Below, piece by piece: positions 10,594-60,394 of a DNA stretch of 64,000 nt (positions within the stretch are counted from its first letter, which is position 1; each line of letters starts with the position of its first letter). This DNA is from Paenibacillus baekrokdamisoli (GTDB lineage Bacteria > Bacillota > Bacilli > Paenibacillales > Paenibacillaceae). Where the stretch lies: positions 1,302,001-1,366,000 of the forward strand of contig NZ_AP019308.1 in assembly GCF_003945345.1 (NCBI RefSeq). The letters are read 5' to 3'. Below the pieces are notes generated by a model, which worked only from the letters and a program-made list of their open reading frames with translations, did not search any database and was not told where the DNA came from. A program made the translations under genes and the position numbers.

Positions 10594-11202
10594 ATGAACA
10601 AGCAGTCATCGAACAGTTAGCAAAATTTTAAGCGAATTGTAGCGAGAATTAAGATACTCGAAAAGTACCCAATCGGAAACGGTATAACAGTCAGCCGGTT
10701 GAATCAGGATGACCACCTTCAAGAATTGCACCGCCAGCTCCGCGGACTACCGACGTACATGTATCTGAATAAGCGAGAACAACGGCTGGAGACAGCGGCT
10801 CACGCTTATCTGACAAAGTATCCAGCTGGTACGAAAGCACAACTGGGAGAGGTCATAACTACGTCTGGAGCAGATCCGGAAGATGAGAAACTTTTGCAAG
10901 AGCTGCGTGGAAAGATTGAGAAGGTTATCGAGGCCCGAACGGGTAATATCGGAGACTACGATTCTGTCATCGAACGGATCAGCGAGCTTCAGGATCTGGA
11001 GCAGCAAAAGGAGTACTTCGATAACGTACTGGAAGTGCTTGAAGATTATAAGCCCGGTTACGGTAAGCTTCTTCGACTGAGATACGTAGAGGATCTGCCA
11101 GCAGGTGAAGTGGCGACAGAACTAAAGGTTGTACGCAAGACTTTTGAGCGATGGAGACCTAAAGCTTTGTATGAATATGCAAAGATATCGGGAATGTCGT
11201 AA
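10590..11202 (+). pseudogene. ArpU-like late transcription regulator, reading frame interrupted (+1 shift)
   Basis: Homologue of the intact 223-residue regulator at 46577. Translation from the ATG at 10590 gives 13 residues and stops at TAA 10629-10631. The remainder continues in the +1 frame from 10630 to 11202. Skipping one T of the TTTT run (10626-10629) restores QLAKFKRIVA, which aligns with QLTSYKRIIA of the paralogue. The C-terminal ~40 residues form a sigma region 4-like helix-turn-helix typical of ArpU-type late activators. The ATG at 10699 could start a 167-residue C-terminal product. Sequencing error, true frameshift and programmed +1 shifting cannot be told apart here. Confidence 0.6.
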
Positions 11203-11278
11203 ATCTGTCGTAACGGTGTCGTAATAATGTCCCACATAAGCCATAATATCCGTGTTATTATGTTAGTATCCAACAATA
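11195..11278 (+). promoter_or_regulatory. Late promoter with four 11-bp-spaced activator repeats
   Basis: TGTCGTAA occurs at 11195, 11206 and 11217, and a degenerate TGTCCCAC at 11228, giving an exact 11-bp period that starts within the regulator's stop codon. Downstream is TGTTATTAT (extended -10, hexamer 11256-11261), overlapped by a second one, TGTTAGTAT, eight bases on. No good -35 is present, which fits an activator-dependent promoter. Prophage 2 has the same layout at 47246-47331 with diverged repeats, so this is a conserved control element. Confidence 0.65.
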
Positions 11279-11298
11279 TAACGATACGAATTAGAGCT

Positions 11299-11325
11299 AA
11301 AGCCGTCCATCTGGGCGGCTTTTTT
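11299..11325 (+). terminator. Intrinsic terminator directly after the late promoter
   Basis: Hairpin AAAGCCGTCC / GGGCGGCTTT followed by a U-run, beginning about 30-35 bases after the expected transcription start. Prophage 2 has the same element at 47365-47392. A terminator this close to the late promoter means that structural genes are expressed only by readthrough or antitermination. Confidence 0.75.
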
Positions 11326-11351
11326 CATACCCAAAACAGGAGGCTGTTAGA

Positions 11352-11477
11352 ATGGGGAAAAGAATTACCGAGAAAGATCCGCCGAAGCAGCCTAGTAGAT
11401 GCGTCCGCTGTTTATGGGGACGTTGGGCTGGTACGGTGCAAGTTTGCAGCATGCCAAAGTGCCAGAAAAAAGAATAG
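11352..11477 (+). CDS. Small cysteine-rich phage protein (41 aa)
   Basis: Short open reading frame with a strong AGGAGG ribosome-binding site at 11338-11343, nine bases before ATG. The product contains CVRCLWGRW and VCSMPKC, a four-cysteine pattern that could bind one zinc ion, with a basic C-terminus. Its position just after the late promoter and terminator resembles small uncharacterised phage proteins seen before terminase genes. Function unknown. Confidence 0.5.
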   Translation: MGKRITEKDPPKQPSRCVRCLWGRWAGTVQVCSMPKCQKKE

Positions 11478-11554
11478 GCCGCAGGGATGCTTTCCCATGC
11501 GGCTAAATAAAATATTACCAGTTTATAGGTGCTTTGTAAATATGAAAGATCGGT

Positions 11555-11785
11555 TCACTGGTTTTTTCGATGGTACAGGCTTGCTTCTTCTTTGCGCTTG
11601 AGCACATCACTGCGAAAGAATAAGCGTTCCTTACCGGAATCCTTAACCGGAACTAGCTTACCATTCTTCACAAAGAGGTGAATGTTCTGCCGGCTGCAAT
11701 CCATGATTTCCATTGCTTCATTTGTACCAATGAGTTCGCGGGAGATCCATTCCGCTAATTCTTCTTTGCTGTTGAATGTGTACAT
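11555..11785 (-). CDS. Excisionase/MerR-like helix-turn-helix protein
   Basis: 76-residue DNA-binding protein with a helix-turn-helix around GTNEAMEIMDCSRQNIHLFVKNGKL and a wing-like LVPVKDSGKERLFFRSDVLKRK. This is the helix_turn_helix_17/excisionase pattern. It lies on the reverse strand between late-promoter elements and terminase, downstream of a 32-residue membrane peptide and a candidate toxin on the same strand. It could regulate that locus. It is absent from prophage 2. Confidence 0.65.
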   Translation of the reverse strand: MYTFNSKEELAEWISRELIGTNEAMEIMDCSRQNIHLFVKNGKLVPVKDSGKERLFFRSDVLKRKEEASLYHRKNQ

Positions 11786-11791
11786 GTGAAA

Positions 11792-11890
11792 TCACCACTT
11801 TACAATGAGTATAGTCAATGCGGCCAAGCTGATAATAAGGGATGCAATACTCAATATCATTGTTGCCTTTTGCATTCTTTTGCTATTCAT
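11792..11890 (-). CDS. Small membrane peptide (32 aa)
   Basis: Reverse-strand open reading frame with AAAGGAG seven to nine bases before ATG. The product has a short basic N-terminus (MNSKRMQK) followed by one hydrophobic helix of about 20 residues ending in VKW. It stops seven bases before the helix-turn-helix gene, so the two look co-transcribed. Single-helix peptides of this size are often toxins or membrane modulators, but nothing here proves that. Confidence 0.45.
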   Translation of the reverse strand: MNSKRMQKATMILSIASLIISLAALTILIVKW

Positions 11891-11921
11891 ACCGCCAGCT
11901 CCTTTGTGTTATAATCTGAGG

Positions 11922-12168: not shown

Positions 12169-12254
12169 GTATGTATTTGTATTATTTGAATATATTATTA
12201 ATTATGAGCGCCCATTTCGGGTGCTCTTCCTATTTCGGGGGTGGGTGTTATGAA

Positions 12255-12707
12255 GTGAAACCGATATCTCAAAAACAAAAGGCTTTTGTTGATCGCTATA
12301 TAGAAATCGGCAATGCAACGCAGGCATACATTGATGCTGGATATAGTGTTACTAAACGCAGCGTAGCTGATGCTAATGGACGGAAGCTGTTACATAAACC
12401 AAATGTTAAGAAGTATCTGGACGAGCGGATCACTGTCAAGGATAGTGAGAAGATCGCTAAACAAGATGAGGTCCTTCAGTTCCTATCGAAGGTTATGCGA
12501 GGAGAAGTCCAGGAGAAGTTCCCTCTTGGCCTTGGTATGGGTGAACAGCAGCTCGTAAAGAAGGAGCTGGATGGGAAAGACCGTATCAAAGCCGCTGAGC
12601 TGTTAGGCAAGCGTTATGCACTCTGGACTGATAAGCAACTGCTTGATAGTGTTGTGGGCGTTCAGATCATTGATGATTTGGGGGCTGATGGCGATGATGA
12701 AGGTTAA
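12255..12707 (+). CDS. terS: Terminase small subunit
   Basis: DNA-recognition subunit of the packaging terminase, Terminase_2 type. The N-terminus has the family pattern SQKQKAFVDRYIEIGNATQAYIDAGYS followed by LHKPNVKKYLDERI. The frame extends upstream without homology, so the GTG at 12255 after GGGGGTGGG is chosen, giving 150 residues. It overlaps the large-subunit gene. It is missing from prophage 2. Confidence 0.85.
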   Translation: MKPISQKQKAFVDRYIEIGNATQAYIDAGYSVTKRSVADANGRKLLHKPNVKKYLDERITVKDSEKIAKQDEVLQFLSKVMRGEVQEKFPLGLGMGEQQLVKKELDGKDRIKAAELLGKRYALWTDKQLLDSVVGVQIIDDLGADGDDEG

Positions 12708-13953
12708 GTTATCCAGACTCATCACAACTCGTTTTCAGAAGTTCTGGAGAGCTGCCAACTCACGTCGGTATCTGAGGCATGTCCTCAAAGGCGGTCGGGG
12801 GTCGGCCAAGTCAACTCACATCGCCATGAAATTGATTGTTGATATGATGCGCTATCCAGTGACTACGCTCTGTGTCCGTAAAGTTGGGCGGACGTTGGAC
12901 GAATCCGTATTTGAGCAATTAAAAGAAGCGATTGAGATCCTTGGGGTAGGTCAATACTGGCGCACTCTTAAATCACCGCTACAACTGATCTACATACCAA
13001 GAGGAAACAAGATCATATTCCGAGGCGCCGATGACCCAGCAAAGATCAAATCGATTAAAATGAGTAAATTCCCACTCGCTTTCCTATGGATTGAGGAACT
13101 GGCTGAATTTAAAACAGAAGATGAAATCTCGACCATTGAAAACTCCGTGCTTCGCGCCGAGCTGCCTGATGGTCTTTTTTATGCCTTTTATTGTAGCTAT
13201 AACCCACCAAAACGTAAGCAGAGTTGGGTGAATAAGAAATACGATACTGTAGTCGATATACCGACCAACACATGTGTCCATCACTCCACCTACCTGGAGA
13301 ATCCACATATCTCAAGGGCATTTATCGAGGAAGCCGAGAGCGTCAGAGCAAAGAACGAGCAAAAGTATGATTGGGAATACCTCGGGAAGGCGATCGGTAG
13401 TGGCGTGGTACCCTTTGATAACCTCGTCTTCCGTAGAATTACAGACGATGAGTTAAAGAGCTTTGATAACATTCGGCAGGGCAACGACTGGGGTTACGGT
13501 GTGGATCCGGTGGCTTTCGTCCGCTGGCATTACGACAAAACGCGTCGTCGCATCTTTGCTATCGATGAAATATATGGTGTGAAAATATCTAACCGGGAGC
13601 TATCCGAGAAGATAAAGGTCAAGGGGTACGATCAATTGATGACGATCGCCGATAGCGCAGAGCCGAAATCAATTGACGAACTAAAGCTCCAGCACCATAT
13701 TCGTATCAAGGGTGCGAAGAAGGGGCCAGGCAGCGTGGAATACGGAGAGAAGTGGTTGGATGATCTGGAAGAGATAGTTATCGATCCGCAGCGGACACCG
13801 AATACAGCGAAAGAGTTTGAGAATATCGACTATCAAACGGACGCTGATGGTAATCCGCGTACAAAGTTAGAGGACAAGGATAATCATACGATCGATGCTA
13901 CGAGGTACGCGTTTGAAGGGGATATGAAGCAATCAGGTATATCTTTTGATTAG
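12694..13953 (+). CDS. terL: Terminase large subunit
   Basis: Packaging ATPase and nuclease of the PBSX/SPP1 type, about 419 residues. The Walker A motif is LKGGRGSAKST near the N-terminus. FLWIEELAEFK is the Walker B region, and the C-terminal nuclease shows ADSAEPKSIDEL and NHTIDATRYAFE. Several in-frame ATG codons (12688, 12694, 12697) follow TTGGGGG; 12694 has the best spacing. Prophage 2 has no copy and therefore cannot package DNA by itself. Confidence 0.92.
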   Translation: MMKVKLSRLITTRFQKFWRAANSRRYLRHVLKGGRGSAKSTHIAMKLIVDMMRYPVTTLCVRKVGRTLDESVFEQLKEAIEILGVGQYWRTLKSPLQLIYIPRGNKIIFRGADDPAKIKSIKMSKFPLAFLWIEELAEFKTEDEISTIENSVLRAELPDGLFYAFYCSYNPPKRKQSWVNKKYDTVVDIPTNTCVHHSTYLENPHISRAFIEEAESVRAKNEQKYDWEYLGKAIGSGVVPFDNLVFRRITDDELKSFDNIRQGNDWGYGVDPVAFVRWHYDKTRRRIFAIDEIYGVKISNRELSEKIKVKGYDQLMTIADSAEPKSIDELKLQHHIRIKGAKKGPGSVEYGEKWLDDLEEIVIDPQRTPNTAKEFENIDYQTDADGNPRTKLEDKDNHTIDATRYAFEGDMKQSGISFD

Positions 13954-46576: not shown

Positions 46577-47248
46577 ATGAATCCTGCTAAACATGAAGCA
46601 CGTGTAGAAACGAAAGAGGGCCAAGAGATGAACGAACAAGATGTCATTCATCAGCTAACCAGCTACAAACGGATCATTGCGCGAATAAAGCTTCTCGAGA
46701 ATTATTCCATTGGCAATGGGATAACTGTGAGTCGATTAAATCAAGACGATCACCTCCAAGAGCTTCACCGCAAACTTAAAGGAATGCCTTCCTATATGTA
46801 TCTGAGTAAGCGAGAACAGCGTTTGGAGACTACGGCTCATGCCTATTTGACGCAATACCCGGCCGGAGTCAAAGCTCAACTGGCAGCTATTCCTCACCAT
46901 GCCGATGATCAAGAAGATGAGAAGCTGTTACGTGAATTAAGACAGAAGGTTGAGAAGGTTGTAGAAGCTAGAACAGGAGATAAAGATAACTTCAATGCTG
47001 TTATTGAACGGATCAGTGAGCTGCAGGATTTAGAGCGAAAAAGGGAATATTATGAATATGCATTTGAGGTGCTGGACGGGTATAAATCGGGCTATGGTAG
47101 AATGCTTCAGAAAGAATATGGGGAGGGAGCGAAGCCAGCAGATATTATTCAAGAGTTCGGGTATACATTAACAACCTATTATCGTCATCGGCGTGCTGCG
47201 TTAGCTGAATACTGCCTGCTCACTAGAGGACTTGGGATCGATAAGTGA
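46577..47248 (+). CDS. ArpU-like late transcription regulator (intact)
   Basis: 223 residues. The C-terminal ~45 residues (YGRMLQKEYGEGAKPADIIQEFGYTLTTYYRHRRAALAEY) form a sigma region 4-like helix-turn-helix of the ArpU/late activator type. The centre is a helical coil with ERISELQDLERKREYYEYAFEVL. GAAAGGTGA supports the ATG at 46577; ATG 46628 corresponds to the start of the prophage 1 homologue. The stop codon is part of the first 11-bp repeat of its presumed target site. Confidence 0.75.
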   Translation: MNPAKHEARVETKEGQEMNEQDVIHQLTSYKRIIARIKLLENYSIGNGITVSRLNQDDHLQELHRKLKGMPSYMYLSKREQRLETTAHAYLTQYPAGVKAQLAAIPHHADDQEDEKLLRELRQKVEKVVEARTGDKDNFNAVIERISELQDLERKREYYEYAFEVLDGYKSGYGRMLQKEYGEGAKPADIIQEFGYTLTTYYRHRRAALAEYCLLTRGLGIDK

Positions 47249-47331
47249 TAAATAAATGATAAAAAGACGGTAATAAATTGATAGCAAAAAGGTTAACAAA
47301 TCCCTGTTTTTATGTGCTATTATGTTAGTAT
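47246..47331 (+). promoter_or_regulatory. Late promoter of prophage 2 with 11-bp-spaced repeats
   Basis: TGATAAA at 47246 and 47257, CGGTAAT at 47268 and TGATAGC at 47279 repeat with an exact 11-bp period, beginning on the regulator's stop codon. TTAACA (47293) and TGCTATTAT (hexamer 47318-47323) follow, overlapped by TGTTAGTAT. The promoter core is almost identical to that at 11253-11269, while the repeats differ in sequence but keep number and spacing. Confidence 0.65.
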
Positions 47332-47364
47332 AGCAATAATAAATAAGAGCCGAAAACGCTTAGT

Positions 47365-47392
47365 AAAGCCGTCCATTGTTGGGCGGCTTTTT
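47365..47392 (+). terminator. Intrinsic terminator directly after the late promoter
   Basis: AAAGCCGTCC / GGGCGGCTTT hairpin plus U-run, about 35 bases after the expected start site. It has the same stem as 11299-11325 but a different loop. Confidence 0.78.
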
Positions 47393-47457
47393 GTATGTGC
47401 TTTGGGGATTTTCAACGTTTGCATAAGAGCTAAAGAGTTTTAATAAAACATCGTTCG

Positions 47458-47489
47458 AGCACTCTCAACTTAAGAGAGTGCTTTTTTTT
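47458..47489 (+). terminator. Intrinsic terminator upstream of the conserved leader
   Basis: AGCACTCTC / GAGAGTGCT perfect stem with eight T residues. It corresponds to 17168-17196 in prophage 1. The preceding 47393-47457 holds no gene and marks where terminase, portal and minor head genes have been lost. Confidence 0.85.
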
Positions 47490-47621
47490 GCGGGCCGCGG
47501 CTGAGACTGCCGGGGCCCTTATTAACTCTTTTGACGGAGCATGACGGCTAACTTAGGCGCAGTTATTGCCATGAAGAGGAAGGGAGAGTGTGCGAGCATG
47601 AAACTGCATGTAGGGCAGTAA
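47490..47621 (+). promoter_or_regulatory. Conserved leader element retained without its scaffold gene
   Basis: Counterpart of 17197-17302: GGCTGAGACTGCCGGGGCC, CGGAGCAT, ACGGCT, GGCG...GCCAT and GGGAGAGTG are kept. After it, ATG at 47598 opens only a seven-codon frame ending at 47621 where the scaffold gene should be. Persistence of the element between two deletions suggests either selection or chance survival. Confidence 0.5.
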
Positions 47622-47658
47622 ACACTAACCACATGGAAGTATAGGGTGGTGATGAGCA

Positions 47659-47745
47659 TTGGCAAGCACAGTAGATATCAGGAGAGAGCTGCCAGCAATA
47701 ATGAATCGCAGGCTGCAGCAATTTCTTGACCAGTACATGAGGTGA
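47659..47745 (+). pseudogene. C-terminal stub of the HK97 gp10-like gene
   Basis: 28 codons starting with TTG encode RRELPAIMNRRLQQFLDQYM, aligning with the last 20 residues of the intact protein at 20361. GGGTGGTGATGAGCA upstream could still serve as a ribosome-binding site. The stub marks the right end of the deletion that removed scaffold, capsid and connector genes from prophage 2. Confidence 0.75.
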
Positions 47746-47749
47746 CAAA

Positions 47750-48166
47750 ATGGAAGAGATACGCAGTGCAATCGTGAATAAGCTGTCACTTTCGTTTCCG
47801 GATTATCCGGTTTTCGACGAACAAGTGACAGAGGGGTCTCAGGTACCGTACTTTATGGTTGTTGAGACTAGCAATGGACAGAAAAAGGCTGGTAATCGAC
47901 GTGTGATTCGTTCATCGACCTTTAATGTTCATTTCTTCCCAGGGCTATTAAATCCGAGATCTGAGTGTCGGATCATGAACGAATGGTGTTACGAGCATCT
48001 ATCTAACATCAGTTTTGAGGGGAACACGTATCAGGGGCGCGATCTTCATGCCGAGATTGTTGATAAGGTGCTGCATTTCTTCATTAACTTTGACGTGCAC
48101 CTGCTGCTCCCGAGAGAGCCCGTTGTTATTATGGAAAACATTGTACAGGAGGAACATATCAAATGA
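47750..48166 (+). CDS. Tail terminator protein of prophage 2
   Basis: 138 residues, homologous to 20767: VPYFMVVETSNGQ, RRVIRSSTFNVHFFP and HAEIVDKVLHFFINFDVHLL. It would cap the tail tube, a step also needed for headless tail particles. GAGGTGAC precedes ATG. The stop overlaps the next start by 4 bp. The intact frame just right of the deletion scar suggests that selection kept the tail functional. Confidence 0.75.
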   Translation: MEEIRSAIVNKLSLSFPDYPVFDEQVTEGSQVPYFMVVETSNGQKKAGNRRVIRSSTFNVHFFPGLLNPRSECRIMNEWCYEHLSNISFEGNTYQGRDLHAEIVDKVLHFFINFDVHLLLPREPVVIMENIVQEEHIK

Positions 48167-48366
48167 GCAAAAAGACAAAAGGTGAACAGACGCCTTTATC
48201 ATTAGAAACGAATGCTGACCTATTCACGAAGGAACAGGTGGTTGGCTCCAAAAGTTATGAGGCTCAGCGGGATGTTTTGACAGCTCTGCTGGATAATAAC
48301 AAGCTTTATACCCATGATCAAATTACGGAAATGCTGCATGCATTTTTAAATAAGGAGGCGAAGTAA
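48163..48366 (+). CDS. Conserved tail-region protein (67 aa)
   Basis: Homologue of the product at 21192: GEQTPLSLETN, KEQVVGSKSYEAQRDVLTALLDNNKLYTHDQITEML. Helical, function unknown. Conserved immediately upstream of the sheath gene in both prophages. AGGAGG precedes ATG by about 8 bases. Confidence 0.65.
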   Translation: MSKKTKGEQTPLSLETNADLFTKEQVVGSKSYEAQRDVLTALLDNNKLYTHDQITEMLHAFLNKEAK

Positions 48367-48369
48367 GCG

Positions 48370-49686
48370 ATGGCAGGTGGAACCTTTACAGCACAAAACA
48401 AAGTACGTCCAGGTGTTTATATCGATATTATTAGTGAGCCGGCTTCACTAGGAGCAGTTGGAGAACGAGGTATTACTTCTTTGGCCTTATCTCTCCCATG
48501 GGGGGTCAGCGGAACGATCATTACGATTCAGGCAGGGGACGATACTAAAGCAGTGCTCGGTTACGATCTGAATGACCCGGAGATGCTGCTTATTCGTGAG
48601 GCGCTTAAACGTGCGAAGACACTGCAGCTTTATCGACTTAATACAGGCGTCAAAGCGACAGCAGCGAGTGGGAATTTGACTGCGACGGCTGTCTATGGAG
48701 GAATCCGAGGCAACGATATTCGTATCGTCATCCAGACGAATATCGATAACAGTGCGATGTTTGATGTTATTACTTATTTTGCTGGTGATATCGTACAAAC
48801 CCAGACGGTTGCGAATATCGCAGGACTTGTTAGTAATGCATGGGTTGTATTTAGCGGCACAGGTACACTCGCTGTCACGGCTGGTGTGCCATTGATCGGT
48901 GGTGCGAATGGAACGATCACAAATGCCAATTATACTGCTTATTTAGCTTTGCTTGAGTTAATCGACTTTGATACTTTGGCTTACACGGGCACAGATGCTT
49001 CCTTAAAGGCAATCTACGCTGCATTTGTTCGTCGTCTACGGGAGAATGAAGGGAAGAAAGTTCAGGTTGTGATGGAGAATTACCCTTCAGCAGACTACGA
49101 AGGTGTTATTAGTATTAAGAATGGGGTCAAATTGTTTGATGGAACGGTGCTAACTGCGGCACAAGCAAGTGCTTGGGTAGCTGCAGCCACTGCAGCTGCT
49201 GGTGCTAACCAATCTCTTACTTATCAAGCCTATGATGATGCCATTGATGCAGGTACACGCTACACGAATGCTCAAATCGAAGCGGCCCTTACAGCTGGTG
49301 AGTTCCTATTCGTGCTGAACAGTGGTAAAGCGGTGATTGAGCAGGACATCAACAGCTTGACTAGCTTTACACCGCAGTATTCGAGGGTTTTTGCGAAAAA
49401 TCGCGTGATTCGAGTATTTGATGGACTAGCAAATGATATTCAACGTATTTTCCAGCAGTCCTATATCGGTAAGATATCGAACAATGCAAACGGACGCAGT
49501 TTACTTCAAGGTGAAATTATTTCTTACCTGCGAAGCATGCAGAATATGAATGCCATTCAGAATTTTGATGCGCAAACGGATGTCATTGTATCTGCTGGCG
49601 AACAGTCGGATTCCGTATATGTTGAAGTTTTTGCACAACCGATTGATTCTATTGAGAAAATCTACATGAAAGTGAGGGTCAGCTAA
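48370..49686 (+). CDS. Contractile tail sheath protein of prophage 2
   Basis: 438 residues, the same length as the protein at 21390, with AGGTFTAQNKVRPGVYID, RRLRENEGKKVQVVMENYP and VEVFAQPIDSIEKIYMKV. The frame is intact. Its stop overlaps the tube gene start by one base. A functional sheath is required for an R-type particle. Confidence 0.93.
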   Translation: MAGGTFTAQNKVRPGVYIDIISEPASLGAVGERGITSLALSLPWGVSGTIITIQAGDDTKAVLGYDLNDPEMLLIREALKRAKTLQLYRLNTGVKATAASGNLTATAVYGGIRGNDIRIVIQTNIDNSAMFDVITYFAGDIVQTQTVANIAGLVSNAWVVFSGTGTLAVTAGVPLIGGANGTITNANYTAYLALLELIDFDTLAYTGTDASLKAIYAAFVRRLRENEGKKVQVVMENYPSADYEGVISIKNGVKLFDGTVLTAAQASAWVAAATAAAGANQSLTYQAYDDAIDAGTRYTNAQIEAALTAGEFLFVLNSGKAVIEQDINSLTSFTPQYSRVFAKNRVIRVFDGLANDIQRIFQQSYIGKISNNANGRSLLQGEIISYLRSMQNMNAIQNFDAQTDVIVSAGEQSDSVYVEVFAQPIDSIEKIYMKVRVS

Positions 49687-50156
49687 TGACATATCTACAC
49701 GCTAAAGACACCATCTCAGGACAAGAAGGAACGGCTTACGCGATCATTAATGGCTTATCCGAAGAAATGTTCTATATCAAAAAGCTCGAAGCGAAAGTGG
49801 AGAAAACAAAAGCCGAAGTGAAGACCCTCGGCCGTCGAGGAACGCAGCATAAGGCAAGCGGTTGGAATGGCAGCGGCACGATGACGATCTATTATGTCAC
49901 GTCTCGCTTTAGAGAAATGATGCTGAAGTATATTAATGAAGGTAAGGATACTTACTTTGATATTATGGTGACCAATGAAGATAAAAGCTCAACCATTGGT
50001 AAGCAAATCGTTCGATTAACAGGAGTTAACCTAGACAGTGTTATTATGGCCTCTCTTGATATTGAGAGTGATGTACTCGAAGAAGAGGTGGCCTTTACCT
50101 TCGAGGGTGTTGAGATGGTCAAGAAGGATATGTTTAATGCTCCAACCAGTCTCTAA
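49686..50156 (+). CDS. Tail tube protein of prophage 2 (XkdM-like)
   Basis: 156 residues with LHAKDTISGQEGTAYAII, MFYIKKLEA and VKTLGRRGTQHKASGW, as in the paralogue at 22708. Intact. Forms the inner tube driven through the target envelope. Confidence 0.92.
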   Translation: MTYLHAKDTISGQEGTAYAIINGLSEEMFYIKKLEAKVEKTKAEVKTLGRRGTQHKASGWNGSGTMTIYYVTSRFREMMLKYINEGKDTYFDIMVTNEDKSSTIGKQIVRLTGVNLDSVIMASLDIESDVLEEEVAFTFEGVEMVKKDMFNAPTSL

Positions 50157-50180
50157 ACGATAATTAGGAGGGAAAAATAA

Positions 50181-50603
50181 ATGAGTGAATTAAGCGCATT
50201 TTTTGCACAAAATGTTCAAACGGATGTAATGGAAGAATTCGTAGTCTCCACACGTTTCAAGGGTGCTGATGGTCAGCCGGTGGCATGGAAGCTGCGAACA
50301 ATGGATGAGGATGAGAACGAGTACTGCCGTAAAGCCGCAACGAAGCATATTAAGAACAAAGGCGGACAGCGGATCCCGGAGACGGATTATAATGAATATA
50401 TTACAAAGCTGATCGCGACATCCGTTGTTTTCCCCAATCTTAAGGATGCAGAGCTGCAGAAATCCTATGGCATTTTGGGAGAATGCGCTCTACTCAAGAA
50501 GATGCTCCTGCCAGGCGAGTACGCGACATTAACGCAAAAAATTCAAGAGATGAACGGTTTCGATCGTGATATGTCGGAGCTTGTTGAAGACGTAAAAAAC
50601 TAA
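50181..50603 (+). CDS. Tail assembly chaperone of prophage 2, zero-frame product
   Basis: 140-residue XkdN-like protein beginning SELSAFFAQNVQ and ending SELVEDVKN. The slippery heptamer A-AAA-AAC at 50594-50600 directly precedes TAA, as in prophage 1. GGAGGG precedes ATG. Binds the tape measure during tail assembly. Confidence 0.9.
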   Translation: MSELSAFFAQNVQTDVMEEFVVSTRFKGADGQPVAWKLRTMDEDENEYCRKAATKHIKNKGGQRIPETDYNEYITKLIATSVVFPNLKDAELQKSYGILGECALLKKMLLPGEYATLTQKIQEMNGFDRDMSELVEDVKN

Positions 50604-50773
50604 TCAAGGAGGGCGATGGTGAGGCGAATTACGCTTACTACGCTCTCCATGAGCTTCGCATTCTGCCACATGATTTCGTGCAAATGGGCCGTTATGAAAA
50701 AGCGGCCATTTACGCCATGATTGATGTCCGAATTGAAGCCGAGAAACAAGCAAAGAAATCAAAAGGAAAATAG
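50600..50773 (+). CDS. Tail assembly chaperone of prophage 2, -1 frameshift extension
   Basis: Entered by -1 slippage on AAAAAAC at 50594-50600. It adds about 57 residues (LIKEGDGEANYAYYALHELRILPHDF ... AKKSKGK), homologous to 23624-23779. It has no start codon of its own. Confidence 0.85.
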   Translation, partial: LIKEGDGEANYAYYALHELRILPHDFVQMGRYEKAAIYAMIDVRIEAEKQAKKSKGK

Positions 50774-50785
50774 AAGCTATCAGTT

Positions 50786-50812
50786 AAGCGTCCTTTCACA
50801 GGGCGCTTTTTT
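50786..50812 (+). terminator. Intrinsic terminator inside the tail operon
   Basis: AAGCGTCC / GGGCGCTT hairpin (one G-T pair) with a T-run, between the chaperone and tape measure genes. In prophage 1 this spot holds the lipoprotein moron and its terminator. Again late transcription has to cross it. Confidence 0.7.
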
Positions 50813-50836
50813 ACATGTCTTGAAGGAGGTGGATAC

Positions 50837-52528
50837 ATGCCATCAATACAAGCAAGTATGGTGCTGTACGATAATTTCAGCCGAAAGCTGAATGCAGTCA
50901 ACCGTGCCATTGATCGAACCGTTAAACGAATGGGACGATTGCGTTCAGAGATGAGTAAGGGCTTCACGATTAAAGTGAATGCGTCCTCTCTAGATGGACA
51001 AATCTCGTCTTTTCAAAAGGTTTTGGATGGCGTAAGCACTGGAGTGACCATTCGTGCTGAGCTTGACACGGCAAGTGCTGTCAATCAAGTCAATGCACTG
51101 CGATCACAAATCATCTCGAAAATAGGGGCGATTCCCGGTCAAATCAATTTAACGCTTTCTCCTACTTTTGAGAATTTGTCTACTTTGATGTTCTCTGCAG
51201 TTAATGCGATTAATACGCAAGTGGAGCAATTGCTGCGAACGGTGAGCGGCATTGCGTCGGTTACAAGTGGAGCATCAGCAGCGTCTGTGACGCCAACTGT
51301 GCCCATGGCGCAAGCAGCGGGACCAGGTGCTAGTGGTGCAAGTGGTGCTGGTGTAGGAGGAGATTGGGGTGGAATTGCTCAACTTGCAATTGATAGTTCA
51401 AAGCCATTAAAGGAATTGGTAGATCAAGCTACTGCTGTTTTTAATATATTTCAACAAATATCAAACTTATTAACGACAAGTGATCTTGCCTATCTTGAAC
51501 CTGTTCTTTGGGGGATCGTAGGCGCTTATTATGGTTGGCAGCTTGCATCACTAGCGGTAGCTGCAGCTCAAGGTTATGCAATTGTCACGAATGCGATATC
51601 TATTATACAAACCGTTATAGGGACATTTGCAACGTTGGGATTATCTCAAGCTTGGAGAATACTGAATGCAGCGATGAACGCTAATGTATTTATGTTGATT
51701 ATTTCTGTCGTTATTGGTCTTATCGCGATGTTTATTTATCTTTGGAATACGAATGATGCTTTTGCTGGATTCTTTATGCGAGCATGGAATGAACTTTTGA
51801 ATTTCTTTGATCAAGTACCTGTATTCTTTTGGCAGGTTGTCAGTTGGATAGCCCAAGCCTTCGTTTGGCTTGGGGACAGTGTTGGAAAGATCTATGATTT
51901 GATGATTAACGGCATTATTGATGGAGTAAATATGCTACTGGGTGTATTTAATATGCTAACAAACAGCAACTATAAAATTGAAGGGAAATTTAGTTTTAAA
52001 GGCATTGCTCAGGATGCGGTTGATTTTGCGAATTCAAAGAAAGAGGATGCAGCGTCAAAGGCAGCAGCAAATGCAGCAAATCGTGAAGCGAGTGTTCAGA
52101 ATACCTTGCAAAAACGAAAAGATGATAGAGCTTTGAAAGCTGCCCAAAAGGATCAAGCTAAGCAGAATAAACAAGTGCCCGCTTTAACCAAAATGGATCC
52201 TACCTATAATGCCAGCTTGAATGATCCGGGTCGAAACTTAAAATCGCAGCCAGCAGCTCCCTTCGCTCAAGGAAATCAAACCCTTGATCGGGTGAACACA
52301 GTTGGTAAAATCGACGATACCGTGGAAATTTCCGGTGAGGATTTGAAAATTATACGTGATCTTGCTGAAGTTAAAGCGATTCAGAACTACGTGACGCTGA
52401 CACCTACTGTACAAGTGACTACGGGTCCTATTTCGAAGCATGTGGATGCAGATGAATTGATCAGGAATATTGTTGCAAGGGTAGATAGTGAGGTTCGGGA
52501 GTCGGGAAAGGCGGTGAGTAATGCCTAG
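50837..52528 (+). CDS. Tail tape measure protein of prophage 2 (short)
   Basis: 563 residues against 852 in prophage 1, so the tail should be about one third shorter. The first ~120 residues keep the amphipathic pattern (FTIKVNASSLDGQISSFQKVLDG). A Gly/Ser-rich linker follows, then hydrophobic segments (about 230-350), a Lys/Ala-rich coil and the shared C-terminus (IQNYVTLTPTVQV). The family core with LSENAPML is missing. The frame is intact, which suggests a shortened but usable ruler. Confidence 0.85.
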   Translation: MPSIQASMVLYDNFSRKLNAVNRAIDRTVKRMGRLRSEMSKGFTIKVNASSLDGQISSFQKVLDGVSTGVTIRAELDTASAVNQVNALRSQIISKIGAIPGQINLTLSPTFENLSTLMFSAVNAINTQVEQLLRTVSGIASVTSGASAASVTPTVPMAQAAGPGASGASGAGVGGDWGGIAQLAIDSSKPLKELVDQATAVFNIFQQISNLLTTSDLAYLEPVLWGIVGAYYGWQLASLAVAAAQGYAIVTNAISIIQTVIGTFATLGLSQAWRILNAAMNANVFMLIISVVIGLIAMFIYLWNTNDAFAGFFMRAWNELLNFFDQVPVFFWQVVSWIAQAFVWLGDSVGKIYDLMINGIIDGVNMLLGVFNMLTNSNYKIEGKFSFKGIAQDAVDFANSKKEDAASKAAANAANREASVQNTLQKRKDDRALKAAQKDQAKQNKQVPALTKMDPTYNASLNDPGRNLKSQPAAPFAQGNQTLDRVNTVGKIDDTVEISGEDLKIIRDLAEVKAIQNYVTLTPTVQVTTGPISKHVDADELIRNIVARVDSEVRESGKAVSNA

Positions 52529-53303
52529 TTTATGGAGGCTGAAGCGAGATGAATATAATATCTACCTGTCTTGGAATAACAACGCTGAAGCGATCCGAAT
52601 TCCAGTAATGCCTGAGAAAATGCAGCTCAAGCGAAAAGGCAATGGAAAAGTCTATGACATCGTTGGCCTTGGACAAATTAATGCCATTCAAGCACGAGAC
52701 TTGGCAGAAATCAGCTTTGAAAGCTTTTTTCCTAGGGTTGATCAGAGCAACCCGAAATTAATAGATGTAAACCCCAAGTTATTTCCAGTAGCACATTTCG
52801 TTGATTCAGGACATTTTCAGAAATTTAAACTGCCTTTCGTAAAGGCTAAAAAGATGACGCCAAGTCAATATATTCATTATCTGACCAAATGGCAGGATTC
52901 CAAGTATCCGATCCGATTTATTTACACGAGTCCTGAGATGTCCATTAATCTCCCTGTTAGTATCGAAAGTTTTGATCGCTGGGAGTCTGCTGGATCGGAA
53001 GGAGACGTCTACTATCAGATGACGCTTAAGGAGTTTGTGTTTCATGCTGCTCGTAGGATTGACAAGGGTAAAGATACTAACGGGAACGATGTACTTAAGG
53101 ATAAAGGCAAATCACGCCTTGATGAGCGGGTGCCTCCCAATACGTACACACTTAAGTCCGGAGATAGCTTGATTCTTGTTGCACGCAAGCAGCTTGGCGA
53201 CTCCGGTCGGTGGAAAGAAATCCAGAAGCTCAATGAGATCAGCGATGCCCAGCTCAAGAAACTACCCATTGGTAAAGTGCTCAAATTACCGAAGAGGAAG
53301 TGA
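52521..53303 (+). CDS. LysM-containing baseplate/tail protein of prophage 2 (XkdP-like)
   Basis: 260 residues: XkdP-like N-terminal domain (IPVMPEKMQLKRKGNGKVYDIVGLGQIN) and C-terminal LysM (YTLKSGDSLILVARKQLGDSGRWKEIQKLNE). It is about 38 residues longer than the paralogue at 27016 because of a central insertion. It overlaps the tape measure gene by 8 bp. Confidence 0.9.
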   Translation: MPSLWRLKRDEYNIYLSWNNNAEAIRIPVMPEKMQLKRKGNGKVYDIVGLGQINAIQARDLAEISFESFFPRVDQSNPKLIDVNPKLFPVAHFVDSGHFQKFKLPFVKAKKMTPSQYIHYLTKWQDSKYPIRFIYTSPEMSINLPVSIESFDRWESAGSEGDVYYQMTLKEFVFHAARRIDKGKDTNGNDVLKDKGKSRLDERVPPNTYTLKSGDSLILVARKQLGDSGRWKEIQKLNEISDAQLKKLPIGKVLKLPKRK

Positions 53304-53306
53304 ACT

Positions 53307-54284
53307 ATGTTTGAAATTATCCTCGACAATAAGAATGGTACGCTGTGGAATATCACGGAGCTGGTGACCAGCGCCACATGGCAAACGAGCAGGCTCGGAA
53401 AAGCAGGAAGCTTGGAAATCACTTTCGTCGATGATCTCTATCAGCGGAATCCTGATTTTATCTATGAGGTAGGCAATGTGATACGTGTTCGAAGAGAAAA
53501 CAAGGGTATCTTCTATGGCTATATATTTGAAGTGAATGAGGAAGCAAGTCGGGAAATTAAGCTGAAGGCATACGATCAAATTCGCTACCTGCTCAATAGT
53601 GAATCGTATGTGTTTGTTAATAAAACCGCAACAGAGATTATTAAAACGATTATCAGTGATACCCAGCTTACGCTGGATAGTTCGAATTTTGCAGACACCT
53701 TGAAGCCAATTCCCAAAATGTCTGCAGAATCTCAACAAATGCTGGATACAGTCTTCAAAGCACTTTCTGAGACCACGGCTATTTCAAAAAAGATTTATAT
53801 CTTTTATGACGATTTTGGTCAGCTTAAGCTTACTCCTTTGGAGGATATGAAGCTGGATCTGATACTTGGTGATAATAGCCTCGTAACGAACTTCAGTCGA
53901 TCTTATTCGATTGACAGTGATACGTATAACTATGTGGTTATGACCCAGAAGAACGAAGAGTCAGGTGCCACCAAGAAGTACATTGCTATGGATTCGGGCA
54001 CTATTGCAAAGTGGGGAAAACTGCAGCTTAACCGTACTGCCGACGAGAAGCTGAATAAAGCCCAAATCAACGAAATTCTGGATGCAGCATTAGCCCTCAA
54101 AAATCGTCCAGTGAGTACATTGAAAATTGAGGTACTAGGCGATATTCAGGTAAGGGCAGGTTCTATGATTCAGGTTGAGATCAAGGAGATCGAGTTGAAT
54201 GGGATTTTTATTGTGAAGGAATGCCAGCATAAATTCACTGGGGACGAGCATACGATGTCACTCGAGCTGGAGGGGAAACTATGA
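53307..54284 (+). CDS. Baseplate hub protein of prophage 2 (XkdQ-like)
   Basis: 325 residues, homologous to 27699: DNKNGTLWNITELVTSATWQTSRLGKAGSL, RRENKGIFYGYIFEV and VKECQHKFTGDEHTMSLEL. Intact hub protein at the tail tip, translated with neighbours that overlap by 4 bp. Confidence 0.88.
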   Translation: MFEIILDNKNGTLWNITELVTSATWQTSRLGKAGSLEITFVDDLYQRNPDFIYEVGNVIRVRRENKGIFYGYIFEVNEEASREIKLKAYDQIRYLLNSESYVFVNKTATEIIKTIISDTQLTLDSSNFADTLKPIPKMSAESQQMLDTVFKALSETTAISKKIYIFYDDFGQLKLTPLEDMKLDLILGDNSLVTNFSRSYSIDSDTYNYVVMTQKNEESGATKKYIAMDSGTIAKWGKLQLNRTADEKLNKAQINEILDAALALKNRPVSTLKIEVLGDIQVRAGSMIQVEIKEIELNGIFIVKECQHKFTGDEHTMSLELEGKL

Positions 54285-54577
54285 GCTTAGTCGAATTAAT
54301 GAAGAAAATTAGTGTTGGAGCCGTGGATGCTTCAAGTCCTGTAGCTGTGTATTTTGGGATCATAAGTGCCATACATCCTTTGGAGGTAGCCGTCAATCAG
54401 CGGTTCATTCTTCCGGAGGATTTTTTAGTTGTACCTGAAAATTTATCCGAGTTTAAGTTGAACATTGGTGGTCAGGAAACGGTTATCCGGCGCGGGCTAG
54501 AGGTTGGGGATAAAATTGTTATGCTGCGAATTAAAGGCGGAGAGCAGTATGTTATTTTGGATCGGGTGGTGGGGTGA
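54281..54577 (+). CDS. DUF2577/XkdR-like baseplate protein of prophage 2
   Basis: 98 residues with IHPLEVAVNQRFILPEDFLVVPE and GDKIVMLRIKGGEQYVILDRV. It lacks the His/Ser-containing insertion of the homologue at 28682. Overlaps both neighbours by 4 bp. Confidence 0.85.
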   Translation: MSLVELMKKISVGAVDASSPVAVYFGIISAIHPLEVAVNQRFILPEDFLVVPENLSEFKLNIGGQETVIRRGLEVGDKIVMLRIKGGEQYVILDRVVG

Positions 54578-54972
54578 TGGTTCTCCCGATAGGCGGAATA
54601 TCCGCGGCATTACAGGAAGTCGTAAGTGAGCCCAGTCTGACTTATCGGTTGGATCCAACTCTCGGGCGAATCGTCGGTTTAATTGATGGCCTTGAGGCTG
54701 TGAAGCAGTCCGTTTACAAAATATTGCAAACGGAACGATTTGTTTACCCCATTTATTCGAGCAATTATGGGTGTGAGCTGATTCGAAATGATAACATTAC
54801 GATTGAGTTTGAGAGATGGATTACGGATGCATTAACCCAGGATGATCGGATTGAAGGTATATCAGACTTTGAATACACACAGTCGGGCGATACAGCTACG
54901 TTATCTTTTTCGGTTGAATCTACTTTTGGCAAATTTAATGTTTCGACAGGAGGTGGGAATACAAATGTATGA
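54574..54972 (+). CDS. DUF2634/XkdS-like baseplate wedge protein of prophage 2
   Basis: 132 residues with VGLIDGLEAVKQSVYKILQTERFVYPIYSSNYG and DDRIEGISDFEYTQSGD, matching 29019. Equivalent to gp25-like wedge proteins. The stop overlaps the J-like gene start by 8 bp. Confidence 0.88.
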   Translation: MMVLPIGGISAALQEVVSEPSLTYRLDPTLGRIVGLIDGLEAVKQSVYKILQTERFVYPIYSSNYGCELIRNDNITIEFERWITDALTQDDRIEGISDFEYTQSGDTATLSFSVESTFGKFNVSTGGGNTNV

Positions 54973-56020
54973 GAGTCAAACCTATGAGCTCATTTTACAT
55001 CGCATGCTGGACCGGGTACCTACAGAAGTAGACAAACGAGAAGGCAGCATTATCTATGATGCACTTGCGCCAGCGGCTCTTGAGTTGTCAATTGCTTATG
55101 CTTCGCTGGATATAAATTTAAATCTTGGATCTGGGCAGACAGCCACCGGCAGCTATTTGGATCTACGGACGATGGACTACGGAATTACACGAAGAGAAGC
55201 GACAAAGGCTGTTCATGAGGGGATCTTCTTGAATACAGTGGGGAGTTTATTTGATATCCCTATCGGGAGTCGGTTTGCTTCTGGGAGCGTTACATTAATG
55301 GTTTCCTCTCGATTATCGTTGGGACATTTTGAGCTGACAGCAGAAATGCCTGGGTCGGAAGCCAACTTAACAACAAATACACTGCTGCCAATCGATTATA
55401 TTACCAATCTTGGTACTGCGCAGTTGGGCGGATTGCTTGTACCGGGTACGGATATCGAGTCCGATGATAAGTTACGTGAACGTTATTTGCAGACTGTACG
55501 CACACCTTCAACGAGTGGGAATAAAGCAGATTACCGGAAATGGGCGCTAGAGGTTAACGGAATTGGGGATGCAGCTGTTCTTCCGCTCTGGAATGGTCCT
55601 GGTACGGTCAAAGTCATATTGCTGGATGCAAATAAACTGCCGGCTTCCTCAACATTGGTGGATGATGTTCAAGCCTATATCGCGCCTACGAATGCAGGAG
55701 AGGGGAAGGCACCTATCGGGGCAACGGTTAATGTTGTGTCTGCAGTTGGCATTTCTATCAACGTAACGGCAGCTCTAATCATGGACGGTACGAGAACTGC
55801 TGGAGAGATTATCAATGATTTCAAAGCCTCCCTTACCGCTTATTTGAAAAGCATAGCCTATGCCATCGACCCCTCTGTTAAGTATGTACGTGTCGGTTCC
55901 TTGCTGCTAGATACAGATGGTGTGAAAGATTATTCCGGATTGCTCGTTAATGGCGGGAGCAGTAACGTGACGGTAGCTTCTGGCTCTGTGGCTGTTCTTG
56001 GGAAGGTGAGCTTAAGCTAA
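54965..56020 (+). CDS. Baseplate J-like protein of prophage 2 (XkdT)
   Basis: 351 residues from the ATG at 54965, which follows AGGAGGTGGG; the longer open frame upstream is not used. Motifs are MLDRVPTEVDKREGSIIYDALAPAA and ESDDKLRERYLQTVRTPSTSGN. Intact and collinear with 29413. Confidence 0.92.
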   Translation: MYESQTYELILHRMLDRVPTEVDKREGSIIYDALAPAALELSIAYASLDINLNLGSGQTATGSYLDLRTMDYGITRREATKAVHEGIFLNTVGSLFDIPIGSRFASGSVTLMVSSRLSLGHFELTAEMPGSEANLTTNTLLPIDYITNLGTAQLGGLLVPGTDIESDDKLRERYLQTVRTPSTSGNKADYRKWALEVNGIGDAAVLPLWNGPGTVKVILLDANKLPASSTLVDDVQAYIAPTNAGEGKAPIGATVNVVSAVGISINVTAALIMDGTRTAGEIINDFKASLTAYLKSIAYAIDPSVKYVRVGSLLLDTDGVKDYSGLLVNGGSSNVTVASGSVAVLGKVSLS

Positions 56021-56598
56021 TGGGTGATTACACATTAACGTCTTTGAAGGGTCAGGATATGCTGGAGGCGCTGCCTTCTTATTACCAGACGGTAAGAGAG
56101 AGCCGATTGCTTGCACAAACAGAAGGTCTTGAGCTAGACGATTTGACAACCAAGATTGACGGCGTACTGGATCAGGCTTTTATTGAGACAGCCACATGGG
56201 GCTTAACTCGGTGGGAAACCGAATTTGGGATCACTCCACCAGCGGGACAGCCTATCGAGCAGCGTCGATCAGTGGTTCGCTCTCGTATACGGGGTACGGG
56301 AACTGTGACCGAGGATCTGATCAAGCGTGTGGCTGAGTCTTATCTCAACGGAGAGGTAGCGGTAACTCAGCATACGAACCTTTATACCGTAACGGTGACT
56401 TTTATGAGTGAGCTCGGTATTCCGCCGAACATTGATGATATTAAACAAGCTGTACGCAGTATCCTTCCCGCACATTTGGATGTGGAATATGCTTTTTCCT
56501 ATGTTTCCTTTGGCATGTTGGAAGGTTACGGTAAATCGTTTGGAAATATTGAAGCAGCCGGATTAACATTCGGCGATTTAGAAGTATGGGGAGGTTAA
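56020..56598 (+). CDS. DUF2313/XkdU-like tail protein of prophage 2
   Basis: 192 residues, the same length as 30479, with KGQDMLEALPSYYQTVRESRLL and the terminal GYGKSFGNIEAAGLTFGDLEVWGG. Connects baseplate and fibres. Starts on the last base of the J-like gene. Confidence 0.88.
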   Translation: MGDYTLTSLKGQDMLEALPSYYQTVRESRLLAQTEGLELDDLTTKIDGVLDQAFIETATWGLTRWETEFGITPPAGQPIEQRRSVVRSRIRGTGTVTEDLIKRVAESYLNGEVAVTQHTNLYTVTVTFMSELGIPPNIDDIKQAVRSILPAHLDVEYAFSYVSFGMLEGYGKSFGNIEAAGLTFGDLEVWGG

Positions 56599-56601
56599 TG
56601 G

Positions 56602-57768
56602 ATGCAGACTCTACCTAGTGGAATAAAGAAAGTTGAAGCTTCAGATAACGCGACAGTCGCGAATTTTAATGTGAATGTGGATTTGCTAGATGCAAAGATT
56701 GCGGAGTTAAATACGCACGAAACGGCAACTACTGGGATACACGGTGCAACGTCAGCAGGCACTGCCAATAAGTTGATGATTCGTGATGCTAACGGGCGTG
56801 CAAAGGTAGCCGCGCCGAGTTCAGCTGATGACATCGCTCGTAAGGATACGGTAGATGCTTTACTCATATCTCCGGTATTTACTGGTATGCCAACCGTCCC
56901 GACAGCAGCTGCAGATACCAATACAACACAAGTGGCATCAACGGCTTTTGTAATCGGCCAAGGTTCCAACACATTACCGGCAATGGACGGAGCGGTCACT
57001 ATTGGAACGTCCGCACGCTTTGCTAAAGCGGATCATGTCCATCCAGCAGATACTTCAAAAGCCCCACTAGCATCACCTATATTTACTGGAATTGCAACTG
57101 CGCCGTATTTCAAAGCGACTGGTGATACTACCCGAAATCTAGTCGCAGCTACTTGGGCTGATTTGTCGGCGAATACTGGAGGTCAAGCATTATTAGCTAA
57201 TAATGCTTACACTGATGGAAACAACAGTTGGAAGTATTCCAATACTCACGCATCGCTTGGCGCTCGAGGTATACGTCTATCAGTTAGTGGAGGAATTGAG
57301 AGTTTTGATACGGGGGCAGTCGCAACTACTGCAGATGCGGCTTTTACTCCTACATGGGTAAAGATGGCTTCACTACTATCACCAGCTTTTACAGGTACAC
57401 CAACCGTCCCGACAGCAGCGGCAGATACTAATACGGCACAAGCGGCATCGACTGCTTTTGTAATAGGCCAAAATTATATGAAGAAGTCTGACGCTATTCC
57501 TGCAGGATCTATGAATTCAGATATATCCAATATCATGACGCTACTCAACGAAGTAGATACACGAGGTGTATTTGTAACTCGCGTTGACGGTTCGATAACA
57601 AAGATCGAAGAAAAGGACGGCTCAACCGTCGTCAGAACCACGGTACTTAATAGGGTTAACGGGTTGCTCTCTACTATAGTTCAAACGGTAGGCGGTAAGG
57701 TTATAACCTATACAATCGTAAGAGACAGCAGTAACTTAATTAAAAATCTTGCAAAATCAGTAGTCTAG
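56602..57768 (+). CDS. Tail fibre protein of prophage 2
   Basis: 388 residues. It shares with 31062 the attachment cap (QTLPSGIKKVEASDNATVANF) and a cassette (about 153-270) whose DNA at 57060-57415 closely matches 31390-31745. The cassette is flanked by a duplicated PTVPTAAADTNT-AQ motif. The C-terminal ~100 residues (DISNIMTLLNEVDTRGVFVTRVDGS) are different and form a small distal domain. The start is an ATG after GGGGAGG. Confidence 0.82.
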   Translation: MQTLPSGIKKVEASDNATVANFNVNVDLLDAKIAELNTHETATTGIHGATSAGTANKLMIRDANGRAKVAAPSSADDIARKDTVDALLISPVFTGMPTVPTAAADTNTTQVASTAFVIGQGSNTLPAMDGAVTIGTSARFAKADHVHPADTSKAPLASPIFTGIATAPYFKATGDTTRNLVAATWADLSANTGGQALLANNAYTDGNNSWKYSNTHASLGARGIRLSVSGGIESFDTGAVATTADAAFTPTWVKMASLLSPAFTGTPTVPTAAADTNTAQAASTAFVIGQNYMKKSDAIPAGSMNSDISNIMTLLNEVDTRGVFVTRVDGSITKIEEKDGSTVVRTTVLNRVNGLLSTIVQTVGGKVITYTIVRDSSNLIKNLAKSVV

Positions 57769-57779
57769 GAGGTTATATT

Positions 57780-59465: not shown

Positions 59466-59476
59466 TTAATGAGGAG

Positions 59477-59767
59477 TTGTTAACAAAGTACATTGCGGGT
59501 GTAGTTGTATTAATAGGAGAGCAAGCAGAAGAGGTTGAGTGAGGTATCTACGTAGGCGACTGCCTATACTCAGAACCTAACTTAACTATCCACGACGTAT
59601 CCAATATAGAGGGTATATAACCCCTCAAATTCTGCTACAAACCATAGCAAGGATTCTCTCAAAATCTTAACTACCTTCCATCTGATTCAGACAAAGTAGT
59701 AAGTCTGAGAAAAGAGCTCGAAGCTGTTCAAGAAGCCGTTATTGCTATAATGGATCTCTTGATGTAG
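59477..59767 (+). pseudogene. XkdW-position gene with three in-frame stops
   Basis: One reading frame runs the whole length with no shift but is interrupted by TGA (59540), TAA (59618) and TAG (59645). Readable parts are KYIAGVVVLIGEQAEEVE, GIYVGDCLYSEPNLTIHDVSN and SDKVVSLRKELEAVQEAVIAIMDLLM, the last a coiled coil as at the end of phage proteins in the XkdW position. A normal start is not obvious. Position (after the fibre, before XkdX and XhlA) fits the PBSX order. Confidence 0.55.
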
Positions 59768-59796
59768 CTAACAAGCTAATGAAGGGAGGTGATACA

Positions 59797-59922
59797 ATGT
59801 ACGCATTCATTCTTAGCATGTGGGTGGCAAAAAAGATCATAGAAGGAAAAGTAAGAAGCTATTCACCTAAATTCATTTCACCAGAAGAAGCTGATTTGGT
59901 TCTAGCAACGCCGCAACTATAA
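59797..59922 (+). CDS. XkdX-position small protein (41 aa)
   Basis: ATG after a very strong AAGGGAGGTG. The product (MYAFILSMWVAKKIIEGKVR, then SPEEADLVLA) has the size and location of XkdX, a short protein between fibre and XhlA genes in PBSX-like phages. The family call is tentative. The frame is intact, unlike its upstream neighbours. Confidence 0.5.
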   Translation: MYAFILSMWVAKKIIEGKVRSYSPKFISPEEADLVLATPQL

Positions 59923-60034
59923 GATAACCTGCTGAGCTGATTAATAGTTTCATATTCGACACGGTAGACTTCGCATAGGCGGGGCTATTTTTAATTTCTG
60001 CAGGTTTAATACGAAGATTCTTATATACAGAATG

Positions 60035-60060: not shown

Positions 60061-60081
60061 CTTTTGGAGAGGGGGGATCAA

Positions 60082-60375: not shown

Positions 60376-60394
60376 GAAGAGAGGATGATAGTTC

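Follow-up and report, generated by a model that had tools for sequence, protein, structure and literature searches.

Four 11-base-pair repeats, a tandem extended -10 core and a close terminator-like hairpin form a recurring late-promoter unit, and possibly an antitermination module, in phage-derived elements of Paenibacillaceae

Many temperate phages of Gram-positive bacteria turn on their genes for packaging, structure and lysis through regulators of the RinA/ArpU/Ltr type, which have been described as simple activators. Here we analysed two late-promoter units lying behind regulator genes related to this group, in a 64,000-nucleotide stretch of the Paenibacillus baekrokdamisoli genome (contig NZ_AP019308.1, positions 1,302,001 to 1,366,000; hereafter the window, whose numbering and forward strand are used unless stated otherwise). 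The described systems closest to them were taken from five papers (PMC13123087, PMC9371919, PMC6606751, PMC11150451, PMC6316719). As a rule, an Ltr regulator recognises four imperfect repeats and switches on the late promoter; Alt of phage TP901-1 is reported to occupy four direct repeats between -76 and -32, and Alt and LlgA act as activators (PMC13123087). For antiterminators of the Q type and AlpA, three things are required: a site embedded in the promoter, a -10-like element where transcription starts and a downstream terminator (PMC9371919, PMC6606751). Q sites are located between -35 and -10 (PMC6606751), and the pause element of AlpA, at -1 to +5, is required for antitermination (PMC9371919). 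Another antiterminator, GafZ, acts at a phage-like late promoter and carries a sigma-like helix-turn-helix (PMC11150451).

The first unit (element 1) begins with four 11-base-pair (bp) repeats at 11195-11238, the predicted sites of the regulator. The exact sequence TGTCGTAA stands at 11195, 11206 and 11217 within three units of the form TGTCGTAAnnn, followed by a degenerate TGTCCCAC at 11228, and the stop codon TAA of the regulator gene (11200-11202) falls inside the first unit. The promoter core TGTTATTATGTTAGTAT (11253-11269; 11250-11269 with the preceding CCG) lies 14 bases past the repeat run. It consists of two extended -10 elements, TG+n+TATTAT and TG+n+TAGTAT, with hexamers at 11256-11261 and 11264-11269 that start 8 bp apart. 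After a further 29 bases comes an intrinsic-terminator-like hairpin (11299-11322) with a T run at 11320-11325, and the fold of 11268-11330 has an energy of -17.7 kcal/mol (z -4.0). The second unit (element 2) has the same layout with different repeats, four TGATAA-like units at 47246-47289 starting at 47246, 47257, 47268 (CGGTAA) and 47279 (TGATAG), and here, too, the regulator gene ends within the first repeat. Its core TGCTATTATGTTAGTAT at 47315-47331 (predicted start 47330) is followed by a terminator-like hairpin at 47365-47390 with T's up to 47395 (z -2.7) and by a second hairpin at 47457-47483. A consensus terminator scan listed both hairpins of element 2, not that of element 1. An earlier note on the window had claimed this layout, with four repeats starting on the stop codon, for two prophages and had suggested that their ArpU-like regulator, or a partner, works as a DNA-loaded antiterminator. 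The observation was confirmed, with the qualification that element 1 has three good repeats and a degenerate one.

Within the window, the core has two matches with at most three mismatches, compared with 0.24 expected, and 3 of 100 shuffled sequences reach two. A loose form of the core gives exactly two exact matches in the 7.26-Mb genome, both of them here; a reversed control pattern gives six, and therefore it is the location of the matches, not their count, that matters. The repeat TGTCGTAA occurs five times in the window against 1.7 expected, three of the five being the repeats of element 1. The more powerful test is the comparison with homologous loci described below.

We consider the chances about even that these late-gene units, beyond being promoters of the known Ltr activator type, also work as antitermination modules resembling those of Q and AlpA. 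The regulator encoded just upstream would bind the 11-bp repeats, as Ltr and Alt do, and bring the host's sigma-A-containing RNA polymerase to a promoter with an extended -10 and without a -35 box. With the first hexamer as the -10, the predicted start lies 7 bases downstream at 11268, an assignment supported by the resulting span of the repeats (about -73 to -30), which agrees with that of Alt (-76 to -32). The second -10-like element, then at -4 to +2, may impose a sigma-dependent hold on the polymerase, during which the regulator or a partner could load as an antiterminator, as for Q and AlpA. The regulator would thus meet the held polymerase before the hairpin at +32 is made and would likely accompany it through the hairpin and its T run, the end of which lies about 58 bases past the predicted start. 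Expression of the late genes would then depend on the regulator helping RNA polymerase through this likely stop, about 50 bases from the predicted start.

Like the systems of Alt of TP901-1, LlgA of Listeria phages and Ltr of phi13, the window units have about four direct repeats upstream of a late promoter, although the repeats of phi13 are 18 bp instead of 11 bp. Late genes follow the regulator here as well, terminase genes in element 1 and tail genes in element 2, and TP901-1 and A118 share the tandem -10 core with the window units. What distinguishes the window units from the Ltr group is the terminator right behind the promoter. The likeness to the Q proteins (lambda Q, 21Q, 82Q) and AlpA lies in promoter-embedded sites (in 21Q a direct repeat), a downstream terminator and a C-terminal helix-turn-helix, and probably in a -10-like element near the start, which is itself a prediction here. 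The -10-like element of AlpA occupies -1 to +5, compared with -4 to +2 from the predicted start here, and we claim no sequence relation between Q or AlpA and the window regulators. GafY/GafZ of the Caulobacter gene transfer agent bring about both activation and antitermination at a phage-like cluster's late promoter, but this alphaproteobacterial system involves two proteins plus integration host factor and a palindromic site between -35 and -10. In the open-licence literature, we found no proposal of antitermination for the RinA/ArpU/Ltr/Alt group; the founding Ltr and Alt papers lie outside that coverage.

Of 394 genomes from the family Paenibacillaceae, 72 encode homologues of the regulator; 27 phage records, exclusively from Paenibacillus phages, contain them too. 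From these we assembled 90 loci, comprising 87 genome loci (the window's own two included) and three phage-record loci; three fragmentary matches (two on G286:C7, one in G073) were left out. The core TGnTAnnATGnTAnTnT was searched with up to one mismatch within 600 bases of the regulator stop and was present in 83 loci, exactly in 73, while 450 shuffled regions gave no exact match and three with up to one mismatch. No core was found within that distance in the other seven (L062, L099, L106, L111, L113, L142, L148). Before counting, we dropped L064 (the same place as L148), exact duplicates and, in L090, a second core that overlapped the first; removal of units sharing 75% identity or more with one already kept reduced 89 units to 68 non-redundant ones. 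When units were picked by the first -10 alone (CCGTGnTAnnAT, up to one mismatch), the second -10 agreed at its four fixed bases in 71 of 78, and the second element is therefore under a constraint of its own. A T-purine step stands 7 bases past the first hexamer, with T in 92% and G or A in all 78 units, and an A-rich stretch behind the core is moderately conserved.

The repeats are regular in their spacing. Upstream of the core, the self-match of the 68 units at a shift of 11 is 0.463, compared with 0.272 in shuffles (z 25), and z is 15 at a shift of 22 and at most 1.9 at every other shift from 5 to 24; single units reach p < 0.05 for the 11-base period in 49 of the 68. The TG that opens most repeats holds a fixed register to the core, falling on the expected offset at 113 of 272 places, on the next base at 49 and on each of ten other offsets at 2-17. 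The repeat sequence itself varies among phages (TGTCGTAA, TGTCCG, TGGCAC, TGAGAC, GATAAAA and others) and the core does not, as the earlier note had observed between its two prophages. Such phage-specific repeats would make each late switch private to its own regulator. Conservation of the regulator is lowest in its helix-turn-helix part (mean column identity 0.26-0.39 at residues 161-200, against 0.41-0.75 before it), and among the loci listed similar repeats accompany similar recognition helices, e.g., TGGCAC with L076, L078, L081 and L108. A Mantel test of repeats against the helix-turn-helix gave a partial r of 0.22 (0 of 999 permutations as high). The N-terminal part gives a nearly equal partial r of 0.21, so recognition is not separable from common descent.

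A first, lenient terminator scan (57 of 68 units against 20 of 68 in shuffles) was judged too loose and superseded by a strict one, which required an energy of -10 kcal/mol or lower, a length of no more than 50 bases and four T in six, and was applied from +17 to +107 of the core. A strict terminator was found in 45 of the 68 units compared with 2.4 in dinucleotide shuffles, and in 11/68, 5/68 and 5/67 of control windows lying 300, 500 and 800 bases further on and 1/68 at 500 bases upstream. The hairpins reach -13 kcal/mol or better in 40 of the 68 units and keep to a narrow place while their sequence changes. The repeats, their register, the doubled -10 and the hairpin, together with their conservation, can be read directly from the loci, and it is from this anatomy that we infer antitermination.

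In most loci, no other terminator stands between the regulator gene and the hairpin. It might accordingly act as an insulator that ends the transcripts of the regulator operon, with the late genes served by a separate promoter further downstream; in element 1, a sigma-A-like extended -10 promoter indeed lies at 11886-11915, upstream of terS. The loci with a remote core speak against such a role. Seven loci have the core at least 130 bases from the stop, and six of them (L118, L122, L124, L133, L140, L143, some of them close relatives) carry two terminators, the first between the regulator and the repeats and the second past the core; L063, the seventh, has only the terminator behind the regulator. 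Since another terminator already closes the regulator operon in these six, the terminator behind the core belongs to the promoter unit, which supports antitermination, and we rejected the end of the regulator operon as a full account of the hairpin. The genes behind the terminators, counted as mechanical open reading frames (ORFs) in the 57 units of the lenient definition, point the same way. A candidate gene with a site resembling a ribosome-binding site begins within 40 bases of the terminator in 14 of the 57 and within 60 bases in 20, with no consensus promoter in the gap, and this arrangement both supports antitermination and counts against an insulator, which we regard as improbable.

Several loci (L061, L071, L072, L077, L079) contain two or three tandem repeat-core units spaced 146 to 272 bases apart. 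Each copy has a terminator in L071 and L079, not all copies do in L072 and L077, and none does in L061. Tandem copies could raise the dose of a short RNA that is terminated after about 55 bases and has a function of its own, and the A-rich stretch behind the core would suit such an RNA, but the hairpin sequence is not conserved and some tandem copies have no terminator. We therefore consider a short RNA slightly less probable still than an insulator.

Beyond the family, the layout is found in part. The region 11190-11480 has no DNA similarity to named phages. A pattern search of viral contigs gave 53 loci, including the window's own two units (L008, L020), and most matches had neither repeats nor a regulator; by eye, a hairpin follows the core in L010, L018, L025 and L058, and a regulator is present in L019 and L039. 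The contigs with an exact core L019, L025 and L058 encode RinA-family regulators (TIGR01636). Across the phylum, the pattern CCGTGnTAnnATGnTAnTrT occurred in 6 of 299 genomes, our own included. By eye, L214, from another family, has its own regulator, repeats, core and hairpin, L211 and L212 have core and hairpin with no regulator in the stretch examined, and L213 and L215 show nothing convincing. In TP901-1, TGATATACTTGTATTAT stands 72 bases behind alt with the same 8-bp spacing, and a hairpin with T's is seen by eye just before terS. This core sits at the place matching the Alt repeats (-76 to -32), which lends support to antitermination. In A118, TGATAAAATGTTATTAG stands behind gp66, an ArpU member (TIGR01637, 8.4e-37) that presumably corresponds to LlgA.

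We then counted the core from -70 to +330 of the stop in narrow sets of non-redundant viral contigs of the A118, RinA and Alt types, in which the cores of L303, L310, L314, L315, L381 and L382 are probably chance matches or misplaced. With up to one mismatch, it was present in 11 of 13 A118-type, 10 of 22 RinA-type and 2 of 21 Alt-type loci (shuffles 0.2, 0.3 and 0.2), and with up to two in 11, 11 and 17 loci, respectively (shuffles 1.9, 3.2 and 3.2). A close terminator behind the core was seen in none of the 11 A118-type, 3 of the 11 RinA-type and 3 of the 17 Alt-type loci with a core. Thus, the doubled -10 is broad; close terminators characterise the Paenibacillaceae branch and some RinA phages. 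Genome searches with TIGR01637 and phrog_248 gave 60 further loci, of which 37 (L150-L156, L180-L209) were scanned and kept out of the counts; L191 alone had a core with one mismatch close to the stop, and in L150/L200, which are one place, such a core lay 212 bases off. phrog_248 matched all 149 genomes searched and is unspecific.

The absence or scarcity of close terminators in the A118-, RinA- and Alt-type sets weighs against antitermination, as do several other observations. Regulators of the Ltr and Alt type are described as activators (PMC13123087), and 23 of the 68 Paenibacillaceae units have no strict terminator behind the core. The repeats lie at about -73 to -30 of a promoter with no -35 box, whereas the sites of Q and AlpA lie between -35 and -10, and for this reason we did not file the regulator as a Q protein. 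Its fold match to AlpA is weak, and AlpA is absent from the matches listed for the model of its N-terminal part (mean predicted local distance difference test score 70). From the promoter upstream of terS in element 1, the late genes could be transcribed without readthrough. The description as activators and the units with no strict terminator would suit a regulator that only raises initiation, with the hairpin as a leaky damper on basal late transcription that is leaked through once the promoter is fully on, as would the A118-type and most Alt-type units, which have a core and no close terminator. However, plain activation does not need a second -10-like element, and it leaves the strength, narrow placement and retention of the hairpins in the face of sequence change to be accounted for. 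We judge activation alone to be the less likely account, though one to be taken seriously.

Leaders behind the regulator have features of their own. tRNA genes were called in 14 of 60 loci scanned, 13 of them within about 350 bases behind the regulator stop and often Pro-TGG (L066, L076, L083, L086, L088, L092, L096, which repeats L066, L097, L098, L101, L102, L112, L127), and tRNA-like sequence was seen by eye also in TP901-1 and some A118-type leaders. Some leaders fold into long structures, and A118-type leaders pair over long range, with one compensatory difference by eye in L254. Conceivably, the nascent leader, as a put-like structure or in a tRNA-related way, decides readthrough in place of a DNA-bound protein, and these features would fit. 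Most Paenibacillaceae hairpins are short and mutually unlike in sequence, and we hold this to be the least probable of the explanations considered.

The regulator of element 1 is open over 167 residues (10699-11202) and matches phrog_36 and phrog_248, with a sigma70-ECF match below the cut-off; that of element 2 has 206 residues from its likely start (46628-47248), and the two are 57% identical over the shared part. The frame of element 1 starting at ATG 10590 is interrupted near 10630 and open again from TTG 10699, and homologues with an unbroken frame exist. A programmed frameshift, prompted by stops in homologues, was provisionally dropped, as most such stops precede the conserved start in the listed loci. 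The PHROG 36 and 248 matches of the window proteins are weak, and among 53 homologues they recur in 52 and 51, respectively. Neither window protein matched the curated models TIGR01637 (ArpU) or TIGR01636 (RinA) at E 0.1, and TIGR01637 was weakly matched by 6 of the 53. Because of this missing match, we do not file them as ArpU: they are relatives of the wider Ltr/RinA/ArpU/Alt group, in which sense alone "ArpU-like" holds.

Behind the hairpin of element 1, the first candidate gene (11352-11477) starts 29 bases on and encodes a 41-residue protein with four cysteines and no family match. Small proteins with the pattern CxxCxWGxWxGxxQxC also lie behind the terminators of L060, L069, L070 and L147, and they are possibly partners of the regulator or simply the first late genes. 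An excisionase-like gene (phrog_4691) at 11555-11785 on the minus strand stands between the late promoter and terS, and the terminase genes occupy 12171-13953. In L104, L115 and L068, the first gene behind the unit encodes a protein beginning like IENNFxYHxPKEGQ, which may resemble anti-CBASS (cyclic oligonucleotide-based antiphage signalling system) proteins of the Acb2 type. Rfam gave no match in the window. Element 2 (46577-61580) encodes the regulator, then tail terminator, sheath, tube, LysM, baseplate J and GH25 lysin, with no head or terminase gene among the eight ORFs scanned. Both elements are phage-derived, and element 2 looks like a contractile tailocin under a phage late promoter rather than a full prophage.

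The antiterminator proposed in the earlier note remains plausible and unproven, and it is better supported than it was from the window alone, as the anatomy recurs in the homologous loci of the regulator. The note had counted absence of the layout from other ArpU-carrying phages against its proposal, and our results go part of that way: with close terminators in 0/11 A118-type, 3/11 RinA-type and 3/17 Alt-type loci, ArpU-type phages as a whole do not share the full layout. More broadly, and with somewhat less than even confidence, we suggest that the RinA/ArpU/Alt/Ltr regulators of Bacillota phages and tailocins, including the Paenibacillaceae branch, are a Gram-positive counterpart of Q. A protein resembling sigma region 4 would load from the 11-bp ladder onto a polymerase held at a tandem extended -10 and render it terminator-proof, and the tandem -10 would be the shared signature of the late promoters.

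If the regulators do load as antiterminators, the gating of late genes in RinA/ArpU/Ltr phages would need rethinking, and Q-like antitermination would not be peculiar to proteobacteria. Should they not, the tandem -10 core and its register-locked 11-bp repeats still provide a compact late-promoter signature for unannotated phages and tailocins, which also pairs each regulator with its own sites.
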